From a virus: a stretch of DNA of 60,642 bases. The notes beneath the pieces are model-generated. The model was not told the DNA's origin. It saw only the letters and a list, made by a program, of their open reading frames with translations, and did no database searches. Shown here piece after piece: positions 20,806 to 60,642 of this stretch. The DNA lies in IMG/VR virus record IMGVR_UViG_3300031673_000043, positions 1-60,642 of that record; one strand, written 5' to 3'. Position 1 is the first letter of the stretch. Each line of letters opens with the position of its first letter. Position numbers and translations under genes: made by a program.

Positions 20806-21852
20806 TCACTCTACCTCCTCGGTGTGTTCCGGGATATAATTCCCACCGATAGAGAAGCCTTTATACTCCCCGTTGCGGAACTTCTCGAGGATCTCATCAC
20901 TGTCAGGCTTCATTGCAATCATCAGCCCTGTCTGCTTCGTCTCCAGCCCAAAGGCCTTTGCAATCTCCACAGTCATAGGCCAAGCGAAGACCACCACACC
21001 CTTCCCTATTGCTTCACCCTTTTCATTTTTCCAGTGCATCTCCCCGGCCTTCCTACTATTTAGCATGAAGTCCGTGGTTGCATCAAGCATTGAGTACTCT
21101 GGAATGTGGTCTCCTTGTTTGTCAAAGTAGGGCTCACCATTCTCACCCTTCGAGATGCTCACTCCCGTATTACAGATTATTGCCCAGCCCAGAACAATCC
21201 CGAGAGTGTCATCAACCTTGAGAACTTCAGCATCATACTCCACTCGATCCGCTGCCTTGAGGAGGTAGAGCTCCTCGAGATCCAGACCTGCAACAGTCCC
21301 AGGATCCGGGAGAGTGTAGCAGGAGACGCTAGAGGATCTTGTCCCTGCAAACTTAACTATTGAGCGAAGTCTCGATCCGCTGCTGTCTACCAGCTCGAGA
21401 TCCTCGAGTGCACACTTCTCCATAGGGAACTCAGAGAGCTCGAGCTGGTCCGGTACCGGTCTTGCATCCTTCGAGAAGAAGGCCAGAGTCCCCTCTTCCA
21501 CAGACAGGCACGAAGAGGGAACCCCAGCCTTGCTGAGAGCGGTCACCACGTCATCACAGCTCTTGTGGATCACACCAGCGAAAATCTCGGGACCGAGTTG
21601 TAGATCTATGACCTCGGGGATCTGCAGGTCTCCCGTGTTCGAGGCCTTGAGAAGACCTTCCTGTCTCAGGATCCTACGTGCCCAGCGGATCCCAGAGAGA
21701 TCTCCTTCTGTCCTGGAGAGGTGATGGTACATCCTCTGCACTTCTCCGAGCGAGAGGGGAGAGTCCTTCTGGACTTCAACCCCTACCTTGCTCCCTGAGT
21801 CCACCAGATCCAGGACATCTTGCGGAGGACGGAAAGTCTTCAACGTGCTCAT
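20806..21852 (-). CDS. XkdF-like prohead serine protease
   Basis: This 348-residue protein carries the XkdF domain in its C-terminal two thirds: LGIVLGWAIIC, then DATTDFMLNSRKAGEMHW, then GVVVFAWPMTVEIAKAFG, ending with NGEYKGFSIGG. The His and Ser positions in MHW and FSIGG are the likely catalytic region. Such proteins process scaffold and capsid during head maturation. The N-terminal 150 residues include an extra helical segment (EGLLKASN... region) of unknown role. Its stop lies two bases before the scaffold gene. Confidence 0.82.
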   Translation of the reverse strand: MSTLKTFRPPQDVLDLVDSGSKVGVEVQKDSPLSLGEVQRMYHHLSRTEGDLSGIRWARRILRQEGLLKASNTGDLQIPEVIDLQLGPEIFAGVIHKSCDDVVTALSKAGVPSSCLSVEEGTLAFFSKDARPVPDQLELSEFPMEKCALEDLELVDSSGSRLRSIVKFAGTRSSSVSCYTLPDPGTVAGLDLEELYLLKAADRVEYDAEVLKVDDTLGIVLGWAIICNTGVSISKGENGEPYFDKQGDHIPEYSMLDATTDFMLNSRKAGEMHWKNEKGEAIGKGVVVFAWPMTVEIAKAFGLETKQTGLMIAMKPDSDEILEKFRNGEYKGFSIGGNYIPEHTEEVE

Positions 21853-31509: not shown

Positions 31510-32634
31510 ATGAAGATCACAGTCAGCAAGAAGGAACTGCTCCTGTCCCTGAAGAAGGTCTGCTCAGTGACACCAGGGAAGACAACCCTCCCGATCCTGC
31601 AGTACGCTCTGATCGAGACGGACAAGCTCGGGACCGGGATCTCCTCCACCGATCTCGACCAGTGGGTCACCGTCAGGATCCACGGGAAGATCGAGAAGGC
31701 AGGCAAGGGGATCTTGCCAGTCAGGAAGATGGACAAGGCGCTGAAAGCCCTCCCTGGCAGCTCCGTCACCATCACCCTCGAGGGGAACAAGGTCTTCATG
31801 AAGTGCGGGAAGACAACCCTCGAGATGGAGACCAGGCCGCTCGAGGACTTCCCTCAGATTCCGAAGGTCAACTCCGAGTTCGGCCTCGAGATCGATCCCT
31901 TCCTCATGACCGAGATCCTGAAGAAGTCCCTGTATGCCGTCTCCACAGACCTCACCAGACCCGCGCTCACCGGGGTCCTGTTCCGTCTCAGCAAAGGCAG
32001 GCTCACTGTGGTCTCCACAGACGGGCACCGGCTCTGCAAGATCGAGACTGGAGCGGTCAAGATCCATGACACCAGGAAACCCCAAGACATCATCATCCCG
32101 TCAAAGAGCCTGAAGATCCTCCAGGACCACGCGGAGAAGGACGGCACACTCTGGGCTTACATCGGCCCGGATTGGATGCAGTTCTCAACCTATGACAATG
32201 AAGGCAAGGGAGTCATGCAACTCCGCTCCAGGCTCATCGAGGGACCTTTTCCGAAGTTCGAGAACGTCATCCCTCAGCACACAGACAAGACCTGCACGTT
32301 CTCGCGTGAGGATCTCCTCGCGTCCGTCAAGAGACTCTCGGTGTTCTCGAACAAGCCGACTAATCAGATCAAGTTCGAGGTCCAGCCGAAGAAGATCTCT
32401 CTGAGCGCTGAGAATGAGGAGCTCGGCAAGGCCTCCGAAGATCTCGAGTGTACAGCGAACAGCACGGTCACAGTCGGATACAATGCCCTCTACCTGCAGC
32501 AGGCCCTGAGCACCCTCGAGAGCGAGGAGCTCACGCTCAACCTGGAGAGACCGGACACTGCCGCACTTATCCAGGAGGAGCTCGAGGAGATCAAGCACAT
32601 GGTGATTGTCATGCCGCTGAGACTGGAGGGATGA
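31510..32634 (+). CDS. dnaN: DNA polymerase III beta subunit (sliding clamp)
   Basis: This 374-residue protein has bacterial beta-clamp length and layout. The three domains each begin with an MKI/LLxAL-type strand-helix (MKITVSKKELLLSLKKVCSV; DPFLMTEILKKSLYAVSTDL; SREDLLASVKRLSVFSNK), with LPILQYALIE and VVSTDGHRLCK as recognisable core motifs. The C-terminus ends in VIVMPLRL, which matches the VMPMRL ending of cellular clamps. It would encircle DNA and tether a polymerase. The phage polymerase here is family A, so the partner is not obvious. It has its own sigma-70-type promoter. Confidence 0.95.
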   Translation: MKITVSKKELLLSLKKVCSVTPGKTTLPILQYALIETDKLGTGISSTDLDQWVTVRIHGKIEKAGKGILPVRKMDKALKALPGSSVTITLEGNKVFMKCGKTTLEMETRPLEDFPQIPKVNSEFGLEIDPFLMTEILKKSLYAVSTDLTRPALTGVLFRLSKGRLTVVSTDGHRLCKIETGAVKIHDTRKPQDIIIPSKSLKILQDHAEKDGTLWAYIGPDWMQFSTYDNEGKGVMQLRSRLIEGPFPKFENVIPQHTDKTCTFSREDLLASVKRLSVFSNKPTNQIKFEVQPKKISLSAENEELGKASEDLECTANSTVTVGYNALYLQQALSTLESEELTLNLERPDTAALIQEELEEIKHMVIVMPLRLEG

Positions 32635-51085: not shown

Positions 51086-51112
51086 TTGACAGATATTTTG
51101 ATTTGATATAAT
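51086..51112 (+). promoter_or_regulatory. Promoter toward DNA polymerase
   Basis: TTGACA (51086-51091) is followed after 15 bases by TATAAT (51107-51112); a second TATAAT at 51112-51117 gives 20. TTTGATATAAT also forms an extended -10. It drives the polymerase gene from a start near 51119. Its -10 overlaps the reverse promoter's -10. Confidence 0.6.
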
Positions 51113-51136
51113 ATAATAGAATATTATTTACGTCAA
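51108..51136 (-). promoter_or_regulatory. Promoter toward HTH gene and primase-helicase
   Basis: On the minus strand TTGACG (51136-51131), 17-base spacer, TATTAT (51113-51108). It is the best match for a reverse promoter here and faces the HTH gene 24 bases from the predicted start. It shares its -10 bases with the forward promoter. Confidence 0.6.
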
Positions 51137-51235
51137 CAAGAAAAAGGTATATGATAGCAGAAACTTGACACAATGCAATCTCAATAAATAGTCAGCCCTA
51201 AGACCCTATGGACACTGATACTTACAGGAGACCTG

Positions 51236-54200
51236 GTGCCTTCAGGATTAACAAAACGAGACCCTCGTTGCTCTCGCTGTCCCTTACATAAGACTGCAGA
51301 CTACGTGTGCCTCCTCGGGGATGAGAGATCTCGAAAGCAGATCCTTCTGGTGGGTGAAGCTCCTGGAGTACAGGAGGAAAAGGCAGGCAGGCTCTTCATA
51401 GGCCGTGCTGGTCGATTGCTCCGGCAGACACTCACTCGCTCTGACTTCTCCGAGGAGGATTATAGTATCATCAACTCAGTGTGTTGCAGGCCTCCGGGGA
51501 ACAGAACACCGAAGGCCTCTGAGATCAAGGCGTGCAGGCACTGGGTTCAAAAAGTGTTCGAGGATGTCCGTCCGAAGTATGTCCTTTTGATGGGAAACCC
51601 GGCGCTCAAGTCAGTACTCAATCTCACCGGTATCACGAAGCATCGAGGAAGACCTCAGGAGAAGTCAGGGATCACTTTCCTTCCTACCTTTAACCCTTCA
51701 GCAGTCCTCCGGGATCCGAACAAGACAACAGCGTTCGAGGCAGATCTCAATCTCTTTGCTGAGATAGTAGACAACGGAGGAGTGCCCAGGGAAGAAGGAC
51801 TCAACCCTGTGGTAGTATCGAACAATAAGCTCGTTGCTGAGATGCTCGAGGATCTCAACGGAGGTGTCTCCTTCGACATCGAGACCACATGTCTCTATCC
51901 CTGGGACAAGGGAGCTCAGGTCACCTCTATAGGATTTGGAACAAGGAGAACTCAGTGGATCATTCCGGTCCCTCACTTCCGTCCTGAGTCAAAAATATGG
52001 ACACCTAAGCAGCTCGATGGGATCCTCAATAAGATCACCAGGGAGCTTGAGGACTGTGTGGTCATTGCTCACAATGGAAAATTTGACAGTCTATGGATGA
52101 AGGTACACCACGGAGTAGAGTGGAAGATCGACTTTGACACCATGCTTGCTCACTATCTCTTGAACGAGAACTCGAGGCACGCGCTGAAGTATCTCGCTCA
52201 GATCTACCTCGGTGCCGTTGACTATGATCTGGATCCTCGGACTGCTCCCTGGGACAAGTTCGTTGAGTATCACGCGAAGGATCTCTACTACACCAGGAGG
52301 CTCAAGTACCTGTTTGCAAAGAGGCTCTTCAAGGAGGGGAGCCTGAAGACTATCTTCGATGAGATCCTCATGCCGTGCTCCACTCTATTCACAGAAGCAG
52401 AGCTCAACGGGTTCTATGTTAATGTCCCAGAGATGGGAAGAGTAGAACAGGATCTCACCCAGCAGATCGAGCAGCTCGGGAAGAAGCTCAAGAAGTACGG
52501 AGACATCAACTACAACTCGACACAACAGCTCGCTGAGCTCCTCTTCAAGAAGCTGAAGTTGAAACCTACAAAGTTCACCGGAACAGGAGCAGCCTCCACA
52601 GACAAGAGTGTGCTCAAGCGTCTGAACCATCCTATCACGAAGGCACTGCTGGACCACCGCTCAGCAACTAAGCTCCTCGGGACATACATCAACGGCTGGA
52701 AGCCCTTCCTGGTGGGACGTGTTATTCACCCCAGTTTCCTGCTCCACGGGACGGTGACAGGCCGGACCAGCTGTCTCTCCGCAGATACTCGAGTAACAAT
52801 GCCAGGTGGGTTAAAAGCTATCCAGAACATTAAGAAAGGAGATTTGGTTTATTGTTACGATAATGATGAGTGTTTAACTTTGGATAGGGTAAGTAAGGTC
52901 TGGTGTACTGGTCTAAAGCCTGTGTACTTAATAAAGTGGTACAGTGGACGTAGGAAAGGTTCTCTGGTAGCTACGGGGGACCATCTTGTGAGAACCCCAG
53001 AGAATACGTACAAGCAAGTCCAGTCCCTCCAAAAAGGCGACTCTGTTGTTGCTCTGAGTAGGCACACATATCAAAATTCCCCGAAAGAGTACCCTGAATT
53101 AGGTATATATAAAGATACCTCCCCACGAAGGGATGAGCATCGAGTTTTGTTTGAGATTACTCATGGTTACCCGGCTGAATCTGTACACCATAAAAACGGT
53201 TTGATAAAAGACAATCGCTTATCTAATCTAGTGGGCTTGTCTCGCTCCGATCATACGAAAATGCACCAGACCTCCAAAGAAGCATCAAGGAGAGGCTTTT
53301 TGTCTCATAGCAAATACGGAAGTAAAATTGTAAAAGCGACAATAGTAGCTAGGAGAAAGTGGTCGGAGAAGTTTCTACCCGCTAAAGTTGCCTATAGTGT
53401 ATTTAGGAAATACCAGGGGACTGTGGGGGCAGCAGAAAAAGCCGCTAAAGAACTAGGAGTTAGTCGAAAAACTCTTACTTCTCGTTTAGCTGATCTAGGA
53501 GTGGGGGGTTATAAAAAAAGGAATAACCATACTATCCTGTCTATAGAACGACTCCCAGGACTTCACCAGGTATATGATATGGAAACTGAAACACATCATA
53601 ATTTTATAGCTGAGGAAGTATGTGTTCATAACTGTGAGCATCCGAATTTGCAGCAGGTGCCCAGGGACTCCTCAATCAGAGCACTCATCACAGCTCCCCG
53701 AGGCTGGGAGTTTGTTGAAGCAGATCTCTCCCAGATCGAGCTCCGTATTGCAGCAGAGCTCGCTGGTGAGAAGAACATGCTTGAGACCTTCTACAACGGA
53801 CAGGACATCCACTGGAGGACAGCAGTCAGGGAGATCTCACGCGCCGGAGGAGAGGCTGAGCTGGTACTGAAGACAGCGAAGAGGTACCTCAAGCACAAGG
53901 TAGAGTATGATGAAGCAGTCCGGTTGATCTATGACATGGGTGTGAAGGCTGCAGCGAAGATAGATGACCGCTGGAACGATCTCCGCTTCAAGGCTAAGGC
54001 TGTGAACTTCGGGTTCCTCTATGGTATGTGGCACAAGTCCTTCAGACAGTACGCTGAGGATGAGTATGGGATCAAGCTCTCCGAGCTCCAGGCGAAGGCA
54101 AGCAGGGAAGCATACTTCGACATGTACCCTGGACTCGAGGAGTGGCATGAGAGACAACGGCGCTATGCAAGGCGCTGGGGATATGTGACCTCACTGAGTG

Positions 54201-54580
54201 GAAGGAAGCGCCGTCTCCCTCTCGCTCAACTCGGTAGAGACTGCCCGGAGAGAAGGGATGCAGAACGTCAGGCAATCAATACTCCGGTGCAGAGTTTCGC
54301 AAACGAGCTCAATTTAATGGCAGCACTCCAGATCCGGGAAGAGTTCGGAACAGGGACCTCGGACAAGATCAAGATTGCAGGGACCGTCCATGACTCCATT
54401 CACTTCTGGATCCGTAGGAAGCACGTGGAGAAGATAGTCCCGAGGATCCTGGAGATCATGAGACACCCCGCGCTGCTCGACAAGATGAACATCAAGCTCC
54501 GTGTACCTATCGAGGCAGAGGCTAAGATCGGACCGTGGAGTGCCGGAGTGGAGTTAGAGCAGTGGGTAGAAAAGAGTTAA
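51236..54580 (+). CDS. UDG / 3'-5' exonuclease / family-A DNA polymerase fusion, intein-containing
   Basis: This 1114-residue precursor has three parts. Residues 1-185 resemble family-4 uracil-DNA glycosylase: Cys12 and Cys15, VGEAPGVQEEKAG, RLFIGRAG, then CRPPGNRTP and FNPSAV, with two later cysteines for an Fe-S cluster. Residues 205-395 form a 3'-5' exonuclease (FDIETTCL with Asp214/Glu216; VIAHNGKFDSLW). The rest is a PolI-type polymerase: TGRTS...CEHPNLQQVP, motif A DLSQIELRIAAE, motif B KAKAVNFGFLYG, motif C VHDSIHFW. An intein splits TGRTS from CEHPNL; removal leaves 827 residues. GTG start after AGGAGACCTG. Confidence 0.92.
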   Translation: MPSGLTKRDPRCSRCPLHKTADYVCLLGDERSRKQILLVGEAPGVQEEKAGRLFIGRAGRLLRQTLTRSDFSEEDYSIINSVCCRPPGNRTPKASEIKACRHWVQKVFEDVRPKYVLLMGNPALKSVLNLTGITKHRGRPQEKSGITFLPTFNPSAVLRDPNKTTAFEADLNLFAEIVDNGGVPREEGLNPVVVSNNKLVAEMLEDLNGGVSFDIETTCLYPWDKGAQVTSIGFGTRRTQWIIPVPHFRPESKIWTPKQLDGILNKITRELEDCVVIAHNGKFDSLWMKVHHGVEWKIDFDTMLAHYLLNENSRHALKYLAQIYLGAVDYDLDPRTAPWDKFVEYHAKDLYYTRRLKYLFAKRLFKEGSLKTIFDEILMPCSTLFTEAELNGFYVNVPEMGRVEQDLTQQIEQLGKKLKKYGDINYNSTQQLAELLFKKLKLKPTKFTGTGAASTDKSVLKRLNHPITKALLDHRSATKLLGTYINGWKPFLVGRVIHPSFLLHGTVTGRTSCLSADTRVTMPGGLKAIQNIKKGDLVYCYDNDECLTLDRVSKVWCTGLKPVYLIKWYSGRRKGSLVATGDHLVRTPENTYKQVQSLQKGDSVVALSRHTYQNSPKEYPELGIYKDTSPRRDEHRVLFEITHGYPAESVHHKNGLIKDNRLSNLVGLSRSDHTKMHQTSKEASRRGFLSHSKYGSKIVKATIVARRKWSEKFLPAKVAYSVFRKYQGTVGAAEKAAKELGVSRKTLTSRLADLGVGGYKKRNNHTILSIERLPGLHQVYDMETETHHNFIAEEVCVHNCEHPNLQQVPRDSSIRALITAPRGWEFVEADLSQIELRIAAELAGEKNMLETFYNGQDIHWRTAVREISRAGGEAELVLKTAKRYLKHKVEYDEAVRLIYDMGVKAAAKIDDRWNDLRFKAKAVNFGFLYGMWHKSFRQYAEDEYGIKLSELQAKASREAYFDMYPGLEEWHERQRRYARRWGYVTSLSGRKRRLPLAQLGRDCPERRDAERQAINTPVQSFANELNLMAALQIREEFGTGTSDKIKIAGTVHDSIHFWIRRKHVEKIVPRILEIMRHPALLDKMNIKLRVPIEAEAKIGPWSAGVELEQWVEKS
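52772..53632 (+). mobile_element. Intein with HNH-type endonuclease in the polymerase gene
   Basis: This 287-residue element begins at Cys513 (CLSADTRVTMPGG, block A) and ends with the block F/G signature FIAEEVCVHN before Cys+1. Block B is visible as LVATGDHLVRT. In the middle are an HNH-like segment (HHKNGLIKDNRLSNLVGLSR) and a helix-turn-helix (AAKELGVSRKTLTSRLADLG), giving homing and binding functions. It is markedly AT-rich relative to the extein. It sits inside TGR-S-CxHPNLQ, a conserved polymerase motif, so splicing is probably required for activity. Confidence 0.93.
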
Positions 54581-55073
54581 TAATAAACAAGGTAAGCAAG
54601 ACTGTCTTAACTTCTTACTTTTGTATTAAACGCGGGCGTTTAGAGAGAACTATAAAACATCGTAGTTATAGTTTTAAGGGGCCTGAGATAACTGGCTTAT
54701 TTGTCTCAATTAAAAATAGACTTTATAAGGTTAGTCATGTTTTATTTCGATTGAGTCACAGCTATAAAAAGATTCCTGTTGGTTGTGAAGTAGATCATAT
54801 TAATAGGGACTATATGGACAATAGGGTATGTAATTTGAGACTGGCAACCTGGTCCCAAAGTCAAGCAAACAGGGGGATTAAATCGGGTATATCTGGTCTC
54901 CGGGGAGTCTATCCTAGCGGTAGTAAGTCGAACCCCTGGAGGGCTAGAGGATTCGTTGTGACGGGCGCAGGATTGAGTTGGGGCTGTTCAAAGATAAGAA
55001 AAGCGCTGCTGAGGCTTACAATGAGTATGCGCATAAGATATTCGGTAAATTTGCTGTACTTAATAAGGTTTAA
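54562..55073 (+). pseudogene. Frameshifted HNH/AP2 homing endonuclease
   Basis: The frame from GTG 54562 encodes an HNH start (SHSYKKIPVGCEVDHINRDY, NRVCNLRLATWSQSQANRG) and the first part of an AP2 domain (NPWRARGF). Near 54950 the continuation switches to another frame, which reads CDGRRIELGLFKDKK, then AAEAYNEYAHKIFGKFAVLN, the normal AP2 end, to TAA at 55073. One base appears lost. Strongly AT-rich. It overlaps the polymerase stop by about 19 bases and ends just before the nuclease gene. A sequencing error or programmed shift is possible. Confidence 0.8.
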
Positions 55074-55090
55074 GGGAAGGAGCTGGAACA

Positions 55091-56086
55091 ATGGCAGACC
55101 TCTTCAAGGTAAGTCAGACAAAGGTCAGGACGTTCAGGACCTGCAGGAGAGCGTATCATCTCAGGTATGTGGACGGCTGGAAGAGAATAGTCAAGGCACG
55201 TCCTCTCACCTTCGGGATAATCATCCACGAGATGCTCGAGGCCTTCGCTGAGGGGAAGGATCCGTTCGCTGTTCTCAACAAGACAGCGAAGGTGAACAAG
55301 AAGCTCTTCGCTGATGAGCGTGAGATGTATGGGAATATCATTGAGGACATCCGTGTCATCATGCAGAACTACTTCAGGATCTACACGAAGAAGTCCCTCA
55401 GGTTCATCAAGCACCAGGGGAAGGCTGCAGAGCACGCGCTCGAGGTTGAGATCGGTGACGGGTTCCTCTTCGTGTTCAGGGTCGATCACTTTGGACGGAC
55501 TGAGAACGGCCTCCGCTGGTTGGTTGAGAACAAGACCTTCTCAAAGAAGCCGAGTGAGGACCAGCGCTGGAGAGATCTTCAGACTTGCATGTATATTAGA
55601 GCCTGTGAGATGCTGGGGATCAAGCACTTGAATGGAGTCCTCTGGAACTATATCAAATCGAAAGCTCCCACCAGACCGGAAGTTCTCCAGGACGGAGTGC
55701 ATCTGAGCAAGCGCAAGATAGATACCCTCCCGGAGACAGTGATGTCAGTCATCAATGAGCACGGTCTGAAGGAGAAGGACTGCAAGGAACAGCTCCAGCA
55801 CGCGAAGAGCAATGTCAGCTCCTACTTCGATAGAGTCATCACTCCTGTAGTCCCTCAGGTTGTGGACATTCTCTTCAACGAGTTCCTCGAGACGTGCATT
55901 GACATCAGGGACCAGCACGGGGAGATCATAGATAGAAACATAGGACAACACTGTGGATGGTGTGAGTTCGAGACTCTTTGCCGGACTGAGTTGACCGGTG
56001 GGGATCTCGACTATGTAAAGGAGCATGAGTATGAGCGAAAAGAAGAGTTCAAGGACCAGGACCTCGAGAACAAGGACGCGGAGTAG
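55091..56086 (+). CDS. RecB/Cas4-like PD-(D/E)XK nuclease
   Basis: This 331-residue protein has a PD-(D/E)XK nuclease fold: helix motif SQTKVRTFRTCRRAYHLRYV, FGIIIHEMLEAF, VFRVDHFGR with Asp, LVENKTFSKKP with the E-x-K pair, and a QTCMYIRAC helix. Cys17 plus the late CGWCEFETLC could hold a 4Fe-4S cluster as in AddB/Cas4. Such proteins process DNA ends with recombinases. It precedes the Sak4-like ATPase, forming a recombination cassette. It overlaps the next gene in another frame by 56 bases. Confidence 0.84.
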   Translation: MADLFKVSQTKVRTFRTCRRAYHLRYVDGWKRIVKARPLTFGIIIHEMLEAFAEGKDPFAVLNKTAKVNKKLFADEREMYGNIIEDIRVIMQNYFRIYTKKSLRFIKHQGKAAEHALEVEIGDGFLFVFRVDHFGRTENGLRWLVENKTFSKKPSEDQRWRDLQTCMYIRACEMLGIKHLNGVLWNYIKSKAPTRPEVLQDGVHLSKRKIDTLPETVMSVINEHGLKEKDCKEQLQHAKSNVSSYFDRVITPVVPQVVDILFNEFLETCIDIRDQHGEIIDRNIGQHCGWCEFETLCRTELTGGDLDYVKEHEYERKEEFKDQDLENKDAE

Positions 56087-57822: not shown

Positions 57823-58566
57823 ATGAGTGAGAAGCCTGAATCAAGACTGCAGAGGAAGATCCAGAAGGCGCTGAAGAAAGCGTTCCCGAGATCCTACTGG
57901 AGGAAGATCCACGGGGGGCAGTTCCAGAGGAAAGGGATCCCGGATCTTCTCGGGTGTGTAGGTGGGTTCTATGTTGCTATTGAAGTTAAGATTGGAACAA
58001 GCAAACCCAATCCTTTACAACAAGCAGTAATTAAAAGCATCAAAAGTGCTGGTGGGATTGCTTTTATCTCTACTGAGGTAGACCATTCTATCAGGGTACT
58101 GACTAAACATCTTAACGGTAAGTTTGCTAGGACTCGCTTATACAACTCCTGGCATAGTATGATGGGGAGATGTTATAGGGATTCACATATCAGTTACCCT
58201 TACTATGGAGCTAAGGGTATCACAGTATGTCCTGAATGGCAAAAGGGGGTCTTTTTTCTTTGGAGAGACATGGGGTTTCCGCCCGATACTGAAGAAGAAC
58301 GGTTCCTTTTGGACAGGATAGATCGTCATAAAGGGTACAGTCCAGGTAACTGCCGCTGGGTCACTGTAGCAGAATCAAACTGTAATAAAGGGGATACCCG
58401 TAATCTAACCTACAACGGTATGACTAAGCCTTTGGCTCAGTGGGCGGATACGTATAACATGAGCAAACAATTACTAAGGTACCGTTTAGATAAGATGGGA
58501 TTACCCCTGTCAATCGCATTAACTAGACCGGTGAAATCGAATGGCCTTAAAATACGAACTCTATGA
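57823..58566 (+). CDS. VRR-NUC nuclease fused to an HNH-type homing endonuclease
   Basis: This 247-residue protein has two parts. Residues 1-90 are a VRR-NUC domain (SRLQRKIQKALKKAFPRSYW, GIPDLLGCVGGFYVAIEVK, with the D...E-x-K nuclease core). Residues about 95-247 are an HNH-type endonuclease (NSWHSMMGRCYRDSHISYPY, LLDRIDRHKGYSPGNCRWV) with a C-terminal helix-turn-helix-like segment (WADTYNMSKQLLRYRLDKMG). Composition turns AT-rich near 57970, inside the VRR-NUC part. In related phages a stand-alone VRR-NUC precedes the SNF2 helicase. It overlaps the helicase gene by 26 bases. Confidence 0.8.
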   Translation: MSEKPESRLQRKIQKALKKAFPRSYWRKIHGGQFQRKGIPDLLGCVGGFYVAIEVKIGTSKPNPLQQAVIKSIKSAGGIAFISTEVDHSIRVLTKHLNGKFARTRLYNSWHSMMGRCYRDSHISYPYYGAKGITVCPEWQKGVFFLWRDMGFPPDTEEERFLLDRIDRHKGYSPGNCRWVTVAESNCNKGDTRNLTYNGMTKPLAQWADTYNMSKQLLRYRLDKMGLPLSIALTRPVKSNGLKIRTL

Positions 58567-60324: not shown

Positions 60325-60579
60325 CTAGACCTCTTCTGCAGCAATAGCCTCCTCGAGGAACTTGTCCCCTATGACCTCACTCGCTCCGCTGAGGGCGTGA
60401 GTACCGAACGCTGCAGGCACGTCCTTTGCCTCGTTCGCGGCCTGGGCTCCGGCTGTCAGTGTTCCGATGAGTGCTGTCACATCATCGGCGCTGACACCGT
60501 CACGCACGGCATTGACGAGCTTTCCGAAGGACCTACCGAAGTTGACAGCATCACCTTTGACATAGTCTGCTGCACCCAT
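60325..60579 (-). CDS. Hypothetical small protein, last gene of the late transcript
   Basis: This 84-residue soluble Ala/Val/Gly-rich helical protein (SADDVTALIGTLTAGAQAAN; GASEVIGDKFLEEAIAAEEV) starts at ATG 60579, after AGGAGGCCTGTA, 11 bases downstream of the amidase on the circular map. It has no membrane segment and no motif I know. Its position suggests a lysis or virion accessory role. The copy at the window start differs by one base (Val22 to Ile). Confidence 0.7.
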   Translation of the reverse strand: MGAADYVKGDAVNFGRSFGKLVNAVRDGVSADDVTALIGTLTAGAQAANEAKDVPAAFGTHALSGASEVIGDKFLEEAIAAEEV

Positions 60580-60642
60580 TACAGGCCTCCTACAGGTTAA
60601 AGAAACGATACAACGCTGTCCTCACAGCGCTGACGTATTGAT
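60500..60642. repeat. Right copy of 143-bp terminal overlap
   Basis: Matches 1-143 in 142 of 143 bases; the exception is C at 60516 where the left copy has T at 17. The difference falls in codon 22 of the 84-residue gene. It could be population variation or a sequencing error at a contig end. Confidence 0.93.

Follow-up and report, generated by a model that had tools for sequence, protein, structure and literature searches.

A uracil-DNA glycosylase domain with asparagine for its leaving-group histidine in a phage DNA polymerase carrying an intein

What does a uracil-DNA glycosylase (UDG) domain do when it is built into a viral replicase? The question is raised by a gene of the phage record IMGVR_UViG_3300031673_000043 (IMG/VR), whose 60,642 bases form the window analysed here. 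A GTG-started open reading frame at positions 51236-54580 of the forward strand, with AGGAG immediately 5' of the start, encodes 1114 amino acids in which Pfam recognised UDG (residues 34-167; 2.9e-26, 92.7 bits against a cut-off of 24.3), DNA_pol_A_exo1 (192-358; 2.8e-17) and, matched in pieces, DNA_pol_A (5.3e-72), as well as Intein_splicing (530-799; 2.9e-12) and HNH_3 (635-674; 2.8e-6). UDG, exonuclease and polymerase follow one another within a single reading frame, which is the layout of the SPO1-type fusions, and this architecture is near certain. A first-pass annotation made from the letters of the DNA had described a UDG joined in frame to a proofreading polymerase, as the open frame and the Pfam domains bear out; the fusion stood, but the intein had been overlooked, as had the asparagine (Asn153) that the uracil pocket has in place of its leaving-group histidine. 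By analogy with a mutated Thermus enzyme, we consider the chances about even that this UDG acts as a tethered uracil- or template-binding module with little glycosylase activity, a reading based on one residue and on the kinetics of a distant relative. The parts of the gene are as follows.

51236..54580, forward strand: whole gene, UDG, 3'-5' exonuclease and family-A DNA polymerase plus intein; precursor of 1114 amino acids, ~827 if spliced
51236..51781, forward strand: UDG domain of family-4 type, residues ~1-182; four cysteines present, last motif NPS, not HPS
51692..51694, forward strand: codon AAC for Asn153, the equivalent of His155 of Thermus UDGa (alignment and codon)
51809..52309, forward strand: 3'-5' proofreading exonuclease, residues 192-358, with D214, E216, N280, D284, Y345 and D349
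52310..52771, forward strand: N-terminal part of the polymerase domain, ending in TGRTS (residue 512)
52772..53632, forward strand: intein, residues 513-799 (287 residues), with Cys1, TGDH and terminal His-Asn; HNH_3 endonuclease at ~635-677
53633..54580, forward strand: C-terminal part of the polymerase with Cys+1, motif A (DLSQIELR), motif B (RFKAKAVNFGFLYG) and motif C (HDS), stop codon included

The UDG domain and its pocket

An AlphaFold2 model of residues 1-381 (pLDDT 92, pTM 0.87) superposed through its residues 3-182 on the Thermus UDG structures 1ui0/1ui1 (Z 26.6, 1.8 Å, 179 residues), a predicted match to family-4 UDGs that lies far beyond chance. The residue numbers of the phage domain nearly coincide with those of Thermus UDGa. 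Cysteines C12, C15, C84 and C100 and motif 1, GEAPGVQEE, align with the Thermotoga and Thermus family-4 enzymes, in agreement with the motif and the presumed iron-sulphur (Fe-S) cysteines reported at first pass, and the pocket residues E41, E47, F54, N80 and N89 are also present in the alignment to Thermus UDGa. The likeness to Thermus UDGa (1ui0) and Thermotoga TM0511 covers the fold, the four cysteines and these five residues, whereas both enzymes differ in standing alone, outside any replicase, and in having the histidine (His155 in Thermus) that is replaced by Asn153 in the phage. The NCBIfam profile UDG_fam4 gave 122.0 bits, slightly under its curated cut-off of 125.3. UdgX is defined by an R-loop with a cross-linking histidine and by a GEQPG motif (PMC10359453). 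The phage domain reads GEAPG and its alignment has no insertion at the site of the R-loop.

What asparagine may mean at this position is suggested by Thermus UDGa, the pocket of which is formed by E41, G42, E47, F54, N80 and H155. H155 is the most damaging of its positions, as the H155S mutant has a k2 lowered from 0.23 to 7.2e-5 per s (~3000-fold) and an about unchanged Km (9.7e-7 and 7.6e-7 M, respectively) (PMC5387724). Because H155S keeps Km but drops k2, uracil binding would be expected to survive in the phage domain and the chemistry would not. The loss of a uracil-pocket residue, named beforehand as the observation that would speak against the first-pass description, is thus seen in part, with histidine changed to asparagine and the other pocket residues present. 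Of the role proposed there, scanning for uracil at the replicase remains plausible since the binding residues are kept, whereas base-excision repair becomes doubtful with the histidine replaced.

In the reading that we favour, a replicative family-A polymerase would be made as an inactive precursor, with an HNH-carrying intein next to its TGRxS motif, and self-splicing would be required before the polymerase works. The mature enzyme would have a family-4-type UDG in the N-terminal place occupied by the 5'-nuclease in cellular Pol I. This domain most likely folds around a 4Fe-4S cluster, as its cysteines suggest, and the binding residues would allow it to admit a flipped-out uracil. Uracil excision, judging from Thermus H155S, would be very slow, and the domain, tethered to the replicase, would read uracil or grip the template and would not serve as a repair glycosylase. 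A more specific version, which we put forward tentatively and hold to be fairly unlikely, is a built-in uracil sensor in which, after intein splicing, the UDG, silenced by one residue but with its uracil pocket and Fe-S frame retained, would bind template uracil and the polymerase would pause or hand over. Such a uracil-sensing replicase would be a family-A counterpart of the archaeal family-B polymerases with their uracil read-ahead pocket.

Fused UDG domains across phages

A scan of viral sequences with the phage protein alone retrieved one relative, whereas an alignment-based scan retrieved 445. The best 80 of these matches, together with phage isolates, provided 93 readable fused UDG domains, which we scored for seven features (the four cysteines counted as one, E41, G44, E47, F54, N80 and the histidine). 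All seven were present in 27 of the 93 and at least one cysteine was lost in 40; exactly one domain, that of this phage, had every scored feature except the histidine. Relatives of the UDG part occurred in 84 phage records, many of the 60 listed being annotated as DNA polymerase, and these records and the solved structure of the phiLo polymerase substantiate the earlier statement that UDG-polymerase fusions exist in some phages. Among the best 80 matches in cellular genomes, mostly covering the exonuclease part alone, no source of the fusion was found. A search by the C-terminal part of the polymerase gave three loci, 31-40% identical.

On a tree of the exonuclease plus the N-terminal polymerase part (94 tips), the phage pairs with locus L090 (support 0.91), followed by L021 and L031 (0.92), with nesting supports of 0.91-0.94 overall. 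All three have HPA and four cysteines, and L021 is 51% identical to this phage over the UDG and exonuclease part. Since the nearest kin carry both the histidine and the four cysteines, the change of the histidine falls on the phage's own branch, which makes it distinct from the clade that has NNPG and lost cysteines. Parsimony counted 10 changes across the family for His/non-His and 7 for Cys/non-Cys, and the UDG domain has persisted despite these repeated switches of catalytic state. Phage replicases with UDGs ranging from intact to fully decayed form a natural series on the role of a repair domain tied to a polymerase. This phage is informative within it, as it retains the binding residues, differs in a single catalytic residue and has His-bearing relatives ~50% identical over UDG and exonuclease; a comparison with these would distinguish the binding of uracil from its removal at the replication fork.

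We also compared conservation between 29 non-redundant Cys-less domains and 29 intact ones, including eight backbone-contact positions transferred by alignment from UdgX (contacts from PMC10359453). Mean conservation of the pocket was 0.52 in the Cys-less domains vs 0.98 in the intact ones (p 0.0004). The backbone-contact positions exhibited no decay (0.65 vs 0.58, respectively). This fits, and does not prove, that decayed UDG domains may keep touching DNA after catalysis has been lost.

Several points weigh against a tethered module without much catalysis. Asn153 is one base away from histidine (AAC vs CAC) in a single metagenomic assembly, so that sequencing error or strain variation is possible. 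Asparagine is no hopeless choice for catalysis in the UDG superfamily, as E. coli Mug carries NPS in this motif and Mug-type enzymes have asparagine there, and the Thermus kinetics are those of H155S, not H155N. In the family comparison, backbone-contact conservation exceeded that of the intact set without reaching significance (p 0.13), and the diversity of the Cys-less set was somewhat lower (mean pairwise identity 0.41 vs 0.36 in the intact set). That the domain persists partly reflects how the relatives were chosen, since they were gathered with an alignment that contained the UDG part. Furthermore, 27 of the 93 relatives look fully intact, so that part of the family may ordinarily use the domain to excise uracil.

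The UDG of this phage could itself be an active glycosylase, with Asn153 working in a Mug-like way, perhaps with a shifted base preference, and removing uracil that arises at the fork by deamination or from dUTP. The retention of the four cysteines and of the remaining pocket residues, the complete family-4 set of 27 of the 93 fused relatives, the nearest among them, and the NPS motif of Mug all speak for it. However, the position concerned is the most damaging one in Thermus UDGa (PMC5387724), the excision of template uracil ahead of the polymerase would create abasic sites, and no apurinic/apyrimidinic endonuclease was found among the open reading frames scanned with family libraries, which represent part of the genome. 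We regard an active enzyme as a serious contender, albeit an unlikely one.

It is quite unlikely that the domain is a functionless decaying relic, retained only since the polymerase cannot do without something folded at its N-terminus. Such a relic would be expected to lose catalytic residues and cysteines time and again, as is seen across the family, but in this phage the pocket is conserved save one residue, and in the Cys-less relatives P154, G138, G120, D170 and I133 are almost invariant, although these positions may serve the fold alone. A part played mainly in processivity or architecture has a precedent in vaccinia D4, which is both a UDG and a processivity factor for the viral polymerase (PMC10253040), and agrees with the backbone-contact face retained by catalytically decayed relatives. 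Nevertheless, the phage encodes a DnaN-type sliding clamp of its own (31510-32634, forward strand) that could supply processivity, and this explanation appears to us distinctly unlikely.

Known fusions, polymerase body and intein

Fusions of this kind are already known from SPO1, PaBG and phiLo; here, the UDG has exchanged its histidine and the polymerase is split by an intein. Our search of the open-licence literature found no account of the spread of catalytic states among UDG-polymerase fusions and no fused UDG described as having all but the catalytic histidine. Of the articles consulted, PMC7412058 alone described the fusion; in PMC11348598 and PMC6302109 the words uracil, UDG, glycosylase and intein do not occur. 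In SPO1 gp31 and its kin, too, a single protein comprises a UDG-like domain, an exonuclease and a family-A polymerase, and its gene has likewise been invaded by a mobile element. SPO1 differs from the phage studied here in that HP is retained whereas Fe-S cysteines have been lost, along with much of motif 1 (QENPFDYEY). The element in its gene is annotated as an intron containing a putative homing endonuclease, where this phage has an intein, and SPO1 has a dUMP hydroxymethylase. It is because such fusions are known that stand-alone UDGs carry database names like 'Phage SPO1 DNA polymerase-related protein'. The polymerase of Thermus phage phiLo, solved as PDB 9qhs ('phiLo family-A DNA polymerase with modified template'), also has an N-terminal UDG domain, but with all seven features including the histidine; it is longer (1142 amino acids in the PDB chain) and only distantly related (23% identity in the fold match). 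It matched our two-domain model only at an rmsd of 22 Å and was absent among the matches listed for the full-length model described below, and so provided no fixed arrangement of UDG and polymerase. Pseudomonas phage PaBG (gp205) and the Lupandier jumbo phages share the UDG-exonuclease-polymerase fusion, for which the PaBG authors propose accurate replication; an analysis of catalytic residues was not found in the excerpts of their article (PMC7412058).

The exonuclease has its motifs DIE (D214/E216), NGKFD (N280/D284) and YHAKD (Y345/D349), and its modelled fold matches Klenow with a Z of about 20. The family-A motifs A, B and C listed above were all found. Motif C (54389-54397) is HDS or HDA within the family and HDE in Klenow; the polymerases of L034 and L100 have ~100 additional residues between motifs A and B compared with their relatives. 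In a full-length model of the intein-free L021 protein (pLDDT 88.8, pTM 0.82), residues 185-830 matched Klenow (Z 35.6, 2.8 Å, 530 residues), which places the UDG domain N-terminal to a Klenow-like body.

The intein possesses all the splicing residues (C513, T580-H583 and H798-N799, followed by the nucleophile C800). Its boundaries are confirmed by intein-free relatives, which show the empty site TGRLS/CEHPNLQQ (slashes mark junctions) and read TGRLSCEHPNLQQVPR. In the 101 best hits, the spacing between the flanking motifs was 3 residues in 69 and 290 in this phage only, 31 being unmatched by the pattern. No relatives of the intein were found in viral contigs. In the cultured Rhodobacter phage RcKickapoo, the polymerase shares the UDG-like N-terminus and carries an intein at the identical position (TGRSA/C...HN/SDNPNGQ), although its UDG motif residues are absent by eye, the inteins are 27% identical and serine, not cysteine, follows the insert. 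A second insertion site in the family is found in the UDG-polymerase of L086 (3214-6507), where an insert with intein-like ends sits in motif B (KAINFGF/C...HN/CYGMG). With the intein of RcKickapoo at the same place and the insert of L086, the site is a recurrent target. Since the insert holds TGRxS apart from the remainder of the polymerase active site, the precursor is expected to be inactive as a polymerase before splicing, and it is very likely, from the sequence features, that the polymerase is made as a precursor that must splice.

Genome context

The record has a direct terminal repeat (1-143 and 60500-60642, 142/143 identities) and the genome is therefore probably complete. Downstream of the polymerase gene are encoded a Cas4-kind exonuclease, a Sak4-like recombinase, a single-strand-binding-like protein, a nuclease and a helicase, and upstream, on the opposite strand, a primase/helicase-like protein. 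The sliding clamp gene is distant from this region. The divergent intergenic region contains 5 promoter-like sites, against 0.5 expected in shuffles.

51086..51192, no strand assigned: intergenic region; promoter-like sites in both orientations (consensus matches only)

The first-pass annotation had also suggested that the UDG might protect a modified genome. In this record we found no member of the thymidylate synthase (TS)/hydroxymethylase family, no ThyX and no dCMP deaminase; neither dUTPase family was found, the search for dUTPase_2 being a weak test (one positive among 14 control genomes). TS-family and dCMP-deaminase genes adjoin the polymerase in many relatives, the TS family being present in 44 of the 50 UDG-polymerase records searched and in 32 of the 34 of at least 40 kb, where the exceptions are this phage and the L092 record. 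A link of these genes specific to the fusion, seen in 6-kb flanks (those of UDG-less polymerases were nearly TS-free), was dropped because 20 of the 27 whole records of UDG-less relatives carry the TS family, merely further off. That the UDG protects or polices a genome in which a modified uracil stands in for thymine (hydroxymethyluracil in SPO1, whose gp29, annotated as dUMP hydroxymethylase, lies near gp31) agrees with those neighbourhoods, but with such genes not found in this phage, no fusion-specific link and TS-family genes that are putative hydroxymethylases, the idea is not supported for this virus and we hold it to be highly improbable.

The small neighbours of the TS cassette in the relatives are mostly unnamed by Pfam, and PHROGs identified two of them as thymidylate kinase. 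A DNA-methyltransferase-like gene (20806-21852, reverse strand; phrog_1530) lies amid head and tail genes. Directly after the polymerase, an HNH homing-endonuclease frame (54535-55251, forward strand) has its expected C-terminal part in another frame and looks broken by a frameshift. At 57823-58566 (forward strand), residues 4-103 form a nuclease (phrog_93) and, in the same frame, residues 102-239 an HNH endonuclease (phrog_3377), which looks like a further HNH invasion near the replication genes.

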